Shown here piece after piece: positions 1 to 784 of a stretch of DNA of 39,682 nt (position 1 is the first letter of the stretch; each line of letters starts with the position of its first letter). The translations under genes and the position numbers were made by a program. The stretch comes from Deltaproteobacteria bacterium (GTDB lineage: Bacteria; Myxococcota_A; UBA796; UBA9615), in NCBI GenBank assembly GCA_023954745.1, contig JAGSHC010000027.1, forward strand, positions 1 through 39,682, given 5' to 3'. The notes beneath the pieces were generated by a model that was not told where the DNA came from, searched no databases, and saw only the letters and a list, made by a program, of their open reading frames with translations.

Positions 1-209
1 CCAGCAGGCGCTGAGGGGAGCGAGGTCAAGGAGGCAAGAGAGGAGAGGAGGGAGGCGTGCTGAAGCACGTCGCACCGACCGACGACCGCAGCCGACGCAA
101 AGCAGGCCCACCAGCAGGCGCTGAGGGGAGCGAGGTCAAGGAGGCAAGAGAGGAGAGGAGGGAGGCGTGCTGAAGCACGTCGCACCGACCGACGACCGCA
201 GCCGACGCA
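1..209. repeat. 110-bp direct tandem repeat, two copies visible
   Basis: Bases 1-99 are repeated exactly at 111-209, so the period is 110 bp. The copies diverge just after the shared GCCGACGCA end. Each copy holds a purine-rich stretch (about 24-54) and a short palindrome CGTGCT-GA-AGCACG (57-70 and 167-180). The first copy starts at the window edge, so the array may continue to the left. No coding sense is apparent. Function unknown; it could be a mobile-element relic, a structured RNA or a replication slippage product. Confidence 0.9.
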
Positions 210-234
210 GAGATCGCTCCCCTCAGCGCCTGCT
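113..234. repeat. 21-bp perfect inverted repeat flanking the second repeat copy
   Basis: The 21 bases at 113-133 (AGCAGGCGCTGAGGGGAGCG plus A) are the exact reverse complement of 214-234; the same left arm also occurs at 3-23. The right arm ends inside the stop codon of the minus-strand gene that terminates at 233. On the minus-strand transcript it would form a long-stem hairpin with an 80-nt loop directly after the stop, so it may act as a terminator. Terminal inverted repeats of this kind also suit a small non-autonomous mobile element. Confidence 0.8.
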
Positions 235-784
235 AGTCGAAGGAGAAGCGGGCGCCGAGGTAGAGCCAGGCCCCACCCGTGAACCCATTCTCGTACCTCA
301 ACACGCCGGTCAACTCGGCGAAGAGCCCGAACACCTCGTTGATGTCCACCCGCACGCCGGGGCCGGCGTTGACCCAGAAGTAGTTGCGCAGGTGCAACAC
401 CAGGGGCGAGATCCCGACATCCGTCGCGATGTAGAACCCAAAGGGCTTCTCCACATCCGGGAGCAGTTCCACCTTCGCTCCGACGGACAGCGCCGCCGAG
501 TGTCCCACCCGGTTCTTCGCCACGGCTCCCTCAGCGAGGGGAGTGACGTCGATCACCGCGTTGTATCCAAAGCGCAGACGACCGTGGAGCCGGAAGTCCC
601 GCTTGCCGAAGAACAGCTCGAATCCGCCGCCCTCGTTGATCCAGGTGCCCGTCCCGCCCGCCTCGGACAGCGCAGCGCCAGCATGAAAGCCGGTTCCGTT
701 GAACACGCCGATGCCGCCAGCGAGAGCGGAGGCAGGCAACAAGAGCGTGACGAGGAGGCTGAAGAGCAGCGCGCGGGAAGTCAT
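233..784 (-). CDS. Small secreted outer-membrane beta-barrel-like protein
   Basis: A 183-residue protein. It starts with a clear signal peptide (MTSRALLFSLLVTLLLPASALAG, cleavage probably after the ALA near residue 22). The rest is rich in alternating hydrophobic/polar segments with aromatic residues and ends in an aromatic (ARFSFD), which suits a small outer-membrane barrel, although no family was recognised. The upstream in-frame codons (to 1021) run through the neighbouring gene in another frame, so the ATG at 784 just before the signal peptide was chosen. It is preceded by TAGAGT seven bases upstream and no Shine-Dalgarno. Its stop codon lies in the right arm of the 21-bp inverted repeat. 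Barrel assignment is inference. Confidence 0.75.
   Translation of the reverse strand: MTSRALLFSLLVTLLLPASALAGGIGVFNGTGFHAGAALSEAGGTGTWINEGGGFELFFGKRDFRLHGRLRFGYNAVIDVTPLAEGAVAKNRVGHSAALSVGAKVELLPDVEKPFGFYIATDVGISPLVLHLRNYFWVNAGPGVRVDINEVFGLFAELTGVLRYENGFTGGAWLYLGARFSFD

Follow-up and report, generated by a model that had tools for sequence, protein, structure and literature searches.

Group IIC introns insert near gene ends. The repeat described here shares that habit but is far too short, and its genome contains no RVT_1 domain. GTAG/CGTC REPs, as outlined in PMC3733652, are palindromes of 20-40 bp located near 3' ends, with an unpaired GTAG or CGTC foot, and they often supply TAG stops to flanking genes. 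Going by that outline, our element resembles REP, BIME and REPIN sequences with their RAYTs in being palindromic, repeated and located at 3' ends, in providing TAG stops from its ends, and in forming inverted pairs in some genomes. It differs from them in being three to six times longer, in folding as a two-loop rod with conserved loop sequences, in its motifs, and in that the element-richest genomes have no Y1 transposase.

A second relevant system is MRSC-65-2, one of 250 mobile or repeat candidates in PMC11109978. The motif is described there as a long stem with strong covariation and a conserved UYCCGG, found dozens of times per genome and in several phyla; it is considered selfish, perhaps acting as DNA. 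Measured against this description, our element has the single long covarying stem, the dozens of copies per genome and the spread over several phyla in common with MRSC-65-2, but UYCCGG is not found in window positions 1-234 (there is no TYCCGG, the nearest being at 457). As for IS1182-family MITEs, repeats that carry the element's core in one genome (G058) have IS1182-family ends, and the element shares with such MITEs the lack of an ORF, TIR-like arms and short duplications. Within the window's genus, however, the element's ends match no insertion sequence (IS) that we found. Moreover, what usually defines a bacterial MITE or REP is its ends or its foot, whereas in this family conservation across phyla lies in the centre and not in the ends. 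We consider the element to be probably a non-autonomous, MITE-like element of ~125-165 bp with long inverted arms, a rod that folds on one strand and a conserved two-loop core, a joint reading of which we infer some steps.

Tandem array at the contig start

The window, meaning the whole stretch of 39,682 nucleotides that was analysed, starts at base 1 of its contig (C68), inside a tandem array. Sequence self-comparison bore out the exact 99-bp, two-copy repeat with a 110-bp period that the sequence-only reading had reported: positions 1-99 and 111-209 are identical, and 1-102 against 111-212 match at 99%, with the sole mismatch at 100/210. The perfect 21-bp inverted arm that it had seen at 214-234, sharing bases with a TAG stop, is also there. 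It is 100% complementary to 3-23, and two bases of the minus-strand gene's stop (CTA at 233-235) lie within it. Over a longer stretch, 23 of 24 positions of 214-237 can pair with 110-133. The parts of the array are as follows.

1-110, plus strand: tandem unit 1, with 5' arm and core, its 3' end replaced by GACGCAAAGCAGGCCCAC; continues the array from contig C438
111-237, plus strand: tandem unit 2, an element complete with both arms and the core; covariance model match at 110-238, 140.9 bits
110-133, plus strand: 5' arm, the 5' side of outer stem P1; pairs with 214-237
132-143, plus strand: GAGGTCAAGGAG, the 5' side of the almost invariant internal loop; unit 1 has it at 22-33
164-181, plus strand: P3 hairpin GGCGTGC-TGAA-GCACGTC; in other copies the sequence varies and the pairing is kept; also at 54-71 in unit 1
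203-215, plus strand: CGACGCAGAGATC, the 3' side of the almost invariant internal loop
214-237, plus strand: 3' arm, the 3' side of outer stem P1; overlaps the minus-strand gene's stop codon
233-235, minus strand: TAG stop of the abutting gene (CTA on the plus strand), with CTAG at 233-236
233-784, minus strand: abutting opposite-strand gene, 183 aa as delimited here; no match in Pfam

Contig C438 closes with 111 bases that match window positions 1-111 exactly, and directly upstream of them it carries the 3' portion of another unit; the array has therefore been broken by the assembly and is longer than what is visible. It consists of one 5'-truncated unit and at least two units. The element family breaks assemblies of this species, with contig ends falling within copies. 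Two other contig pairs of the same genome, C480/C462 and C389/C181, likewise end inside element copies when inspected by eye.

A dispersed repeat family

Using window positions 1-234 as a BLAST query, we found 40 matches at E<=1e-3 in the element's own genome, and a covariance model built from 21 copies found 54 at E<=0.01. The genome search that the sequence-only reading had proposed thus finds the unit dispersed, and these many copies rule out a chance origin of the repeat. The objection it had raised against itself, a unique unit duplicated by an assembly-edge artefact, fails on uniqueness, although the contig edge itself is real. It had also argued from exact identity to recent origin or selection, which holds for the tandem step only, as the dispersed copies are mostly 73-90% alike.

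The covariance model detected the family in 10 of the 58 searched genomes, own genome included, with 50 matches in the own genome (under stricter filters than those behind the count of 54), 47 in its genus-mate, 13 in genome G053, and two or three in each of seven further genomes; the four other genomes of the same taxonomic family gave no match to the model. A pattern search with the two core motifs returned at least 80 stretches in named genomes plus one viral contig. The model was then applied to 55 of the 81 pattern loci; it confirmed 42 of them, giving 47 hits, but not the other 13, among which is the one contig from the viral collection. The confirmed hosts, whose labels are MAG titles and may reflect contamination, include Myxococcaceae, Myxococcales, Deltaproteobacteria, Acidobacteria, Planctomycetota, Chloroflexi and one Thermoplasmatales MAG.

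Family members are ~125-165 bp in size and hold no coding unit. One candidate for a protein-coding unit, a frame with a coiled-coil look (EVKEAREERREA, ADAEIERLR), is broken by in-frame stops and by one-base length differences between aligned copies. Searching 19 loci against Rfam 15 at E-value limits of 5 and 2 gave merely weak matches, all of them off the element, and in the literature on PMC we recognised nothing that describes this family. It apparently has no name, and is set apart from MRSC-65-2 by the published description of that motif. The repeat family is real, structured and MITE-like.

Conserved core and folded structure

Complete copies fold as a single rod. Its parts are outer stem P1, which the variable arms form, an internal loop, P2 as the second stem, another loop and the variable P3 hairpin. 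The internal loop is almost invariant, with CGAGGUCAAGGAG as its 5' strand and CGACGCNGAGAUCG as its 3' strand (also written GAGGUCAAGGAG and CGACGCAGAGAUC). In alignment A1, compensatory change on both sides occurs in 29 of 38 pairs, and paired cells reach 93.2%, where shuffles give 70.1%. Covariation scores 0.606; shuffles score 0.185, with 0 of 500 reaching the observed value (a figure that is not a probability, the copies being related), and slid partners score 0.08-0.14, a control that keeps the relatedness but is biased towards a structure taken from that alignment. Five sets that were each folded on their own (24 copies from the own genome, 18 from the genus-mate, nine mostly deltaproteobacterial, nine acidobacterial and others, and six from G053) all gave the same type of rod, with covarying pairs of 25/34, 14/25, 24/40, 15/28 and 20/35. 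Across phyla the centre is conserved while the ends and stems change, which points to the folded core as the selected part.

The complete unit in the window has a predicted folding energy of -75.2 kcal/mol (z -7.9) on the plus strand and -71.8 kcal/mol (z -5.9) on the minus strand. An ungapped count over the arms (14 positions by 79 rows, including repeat fetches of own-genome copies and relatives, after prior exclusion of rows with fewer than nine paired positions) gave 122 G.U against 31 A.C, and the seven rows labelled as own genome, taken alone, gave 9 against 7. Within the folded sets the G.U:A.C ratios were 62:10, 32:3, 17:2, 15:2 and 12:3. Since an A.C on one strand is a G.U on the other, this excess suggests that selection acts on the G.U-rich strand; it appears to be the plus strand of the element, as RNA or single-stranded DNA. 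With respect to the abutting gene, the strand that folds is the antisense one.

Two variant arrangements were seen among relatives. In genome G015, compact forms (L134 900-1619, L145 1178-1655 and L133 1316-1886) have an inner stem and hairpin reducible to a few bases (CGAGGAGC-ANC-GCGACGAAG), and are clustered and inverted near genes. Loci L175, L208 and L220, from Acidobacteria and Myxococcales MAGs, have two opposed cores per repeat, resembling a REP doublet.

Placement at stop codons and mobility

Genes around the copies were called with a simple codon-model gene caller made for this analysis. Of 39 copies examined in the own genome, 36 had a right-hand gene called, and 35 of these genes are encoded on the opposite strand and stop at the element; in the genus-mate, the right-hand gene ends at the element in all 20 copies with such a gene called. 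Distances from the model edge to the stop range from -22 to +33 and from -5 to +10 in the two genomes. G053 had a right-hand gene called in nine of 12 copies, with the stop at most six bases away in eight of the nine. As a control, TGA outside genes in the same loci corresponded to called stops in 49 of 252 cases (19%) in the own genome and 17 of 87 in the genus-mate. Almost without exception in the genus, the element's 3' end abuts the stop of an opposite-strand gene. The left side is mixed, with the neighbour ending at the element in 20 and starting in 15 of the 35 own-genome copies that have a left gene, and in the distant relatives G006, G011, G014, G015 and G025 the stop-codon rule is not clearly seen.

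Young copies are represented by subfamily A in the genus-mate, eight elements (L095-L101 and L103) that are near-identical, arms included, at eight different gene ends, each directly after a TGA stop on the gene's strand. TCA is found by the 3' end in eight of eight and by the 5' end in six of eight, and its presence at both ends can be read as a three-base target duplication. Looking for target-site duplications, as had been proposed at the outset, was thus rewarded with a duplicated TGA in young copies; in older copies of the own genome the ends are blurred. For two of the subfamily A genes, the own-genome counterparts are empty sites (L236, 75% identity; L331, 80%) with the same TGA and no element, and the truncated genus-mate copies L305 and L309 likewise follow TGA. 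These near-identical young copies with their TGA duplication, taken together with the two empty sites, show insertion at stop codons, and both mobility and such insertion are well supported in the genus. An idea proposed for the variable arms, insertion of the core into pre-existing hairpins, gained no support, as the young genus-mate copies bring their own arms.

Truncation in the own genome is lopsided. The 42 scored core copies comprise 23 with both motifs, 13 without the 5' motif and six without the 3' motif, in a tally that omits copies less than 75 bases from the start of a stretch, counts L026 twice among the 13, and includes one L139 call that seems spurious by eye; also by eye, among the six, L014 and L023 run off their contigs, L008 is an array unit and L013 has the motif. 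Truncated copies frequently start less than ~50 bases from the neighbour's stop. At L037 (contig C24 of the own genome, 1860-2060), the 3' side of a copy is cut by a different, terminator-like hairpin, CCTAAACGGCTTCTCATGAGAAGCCGTTTAG.

Four of the 20 fetched genus-mate loci have an own-genome counterpart that is likewise occupied by a copy (L107/L009, L109/L007, L112/L032 and L108/L023), where we roughly estimate that chance would give ~0.2 (20 loci, 54 copies and ~6,500 genes). In L107/L009 and L109/L007 the same gene end bears copies from different subfamilies, so that repeated insertion or copy conversion is likelier than simple descent. These shared loci bear on the strongest alternative to a MITE-like element, a host-serving 3' element in which a structured RNA at gene ends would stabilise, end or regulate messages of the convergent or abutting genes and would have spread and persisted because it is useful. 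Orthologous gene ends occupied in two species, L107/L009 and L109/L007 for example, speak for it, as do the tight placement at stop codons and the strong compensatory change in the stems. We nevertheless judge it unlikely: the strand that folds runs antisense to the gene it abuts, the left-hand gene ends at the element in only 20 of 35 own-genome copies with a left gene, no T-run terminator is present, the near-identical recent bursts and truncated copies look selfish, and the paired loci bear different subfamilies.

Search for a mobilizing transposase and best explanation

A link to a transposase comes from G058, where CTAGCAGCCTGTCTCAGTAA and its complement form the ends of the repeats that carry the core. 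A 1,487-bp IS in that genome begins its contig with the same end, CTAGCAGCCTGTCTCAGTAA, followed by a 422-aa transposase of the IS1182 family (NF033551, 6.7e-109) and then by TTACCGGGACGGGCTGCTAG; IS and repeats thus have common ends. The IS itself holds no convincing core, with a loose 12-base plus-strand match inside the gene (two mismatches) and none on the other strand. In G059, repeats end in CTAGTGTCCCGTC, the end pattern matches 25 times in the genome, and the complete pairable repeats contain the core; no paired complete repeat there brackets a transposase. That different ends surround one core is the oddest feature of the family.

Nearer to the window, a domain search of the own genome gave zero matches to PF01609 (DDE_Tnp_1), PF01797 and PF00078, and a PF01609 transposase as its mover was accordingly rejected. 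A search of the genus-mate with the subfamily A ends, allowing at most two mismatches, found nothing beyond element copies and fragments. At L349 (contig C293 of the genus-mate), an IS1182-like transposase gene lies ~0.7 kb from an element copy, with CTAGGAGCCTGTCGTACG on one side; as an autonomous partner it was discarded, its ends differing from those of the element.

The sequence-only reading had offered two explanations, a MITE-like element at a gene end and a structured terminator amplified by slippage. The first largely stands on the dispersed copies, the lack of an ORF, the inverted arms, insertion at a stop codon, the duplicated TGA and the IS1182-family ends in G058. The element is short and dispersed and has no transposase gene, and in subfamily A it has inverted ends together with a target-site duplication, as is expected of a MITE. 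The second does not give the main account: a stem is present yet no T-run was seen by eye on either side, so that an intrinsic terminator was rejected, and the core recurs in unrelated genomes. Slippage or unequal recombination may still explain the tandem step.

Under the MITE-like reading, a transposase acting in trans would move the element and join it to stop-codon motifs (TGA or CTAG), and the core would work as a folded single-stranded nucleic acid, RNA or DNA, for the life cycle of the element and not for the host. Pairing of the arms may be maintained by selection or by hairpin-templated correction, and the exact tandem repeat would have come later, through slippage or unequal recombination between units. 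Joining at stop codons would allow a parasite to spread without harm to its host. Several observations fit this reading poorly. The own genome gave no partner among the three domains searched, the end search in the genus-mate yielded element copies and fragments only, an ordinary MITE keeps its ends whereas this element keeps its centre and has variable ends, one constant orientation is unusual for a TIR element, and the four of 20 genus-mate loci with an occupied own-genome counterpart also fit long retention for a host function.

A broader proposal, which we put forward tentatively, is that the family is a widespread, unnamed, folded nucleic-acid parasite, with a two-loop rod core conserved across Myxococcota, Acidobacteria and other phyla, short palindromic carriers with differing types of ends, one orientation and harmless insertion exactly at stop codons. 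A host factor or transposase would then recognise the core, rather than the ends, in the form of RNA or single-stranded DNA.

A mobile RNA would produce a similar picture if the folded RNA primed reverse transcription at the stop codon and the cDNA extended the sense strand of the gene. This would suit the fixed antisense orientation with its short duplication, the strand-specific structure, and the many 5'-truncated copies (13 of 42 without the 5' motif compared with six of 42 without the 3' motif, the latter, by eye, mostly contig ends, array units or scoring misses). We think it improbable, given that RVT_1 is absent from the own genome and G053 and found once in the genus-mate, that CTAG-ended copies have ends in common with a DDE insertion sequence in G058, and that the truncated copies often begin just after the neighbour's stop, which deletion explains equally well. 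The same PF00078 counts (0, 0 and 1) led us to reject an element dependent on reverse transcriptase, such as a group II intron or retron. Ordinary GTAG/CGTC REPs moved by a RAYT (Y1) transposase are very improbable: the copies are palindromic, intergenic and near 3' ends, sometimes form inverted pairs (L175, L208, L220), and GTAG REPs as outlined in PMC3733652 often provide TAG stops, but an element of ~125 bp with a conserved core contrasts with their 20-40 bp, and Y1_Tnp (PF01797) gave no match in the own genome, the genus-mate or G053.

One CTAG-ended repeat, at ~1470-1500 of L241 in genome G061, is apparently inserted in the CTAG end of another.
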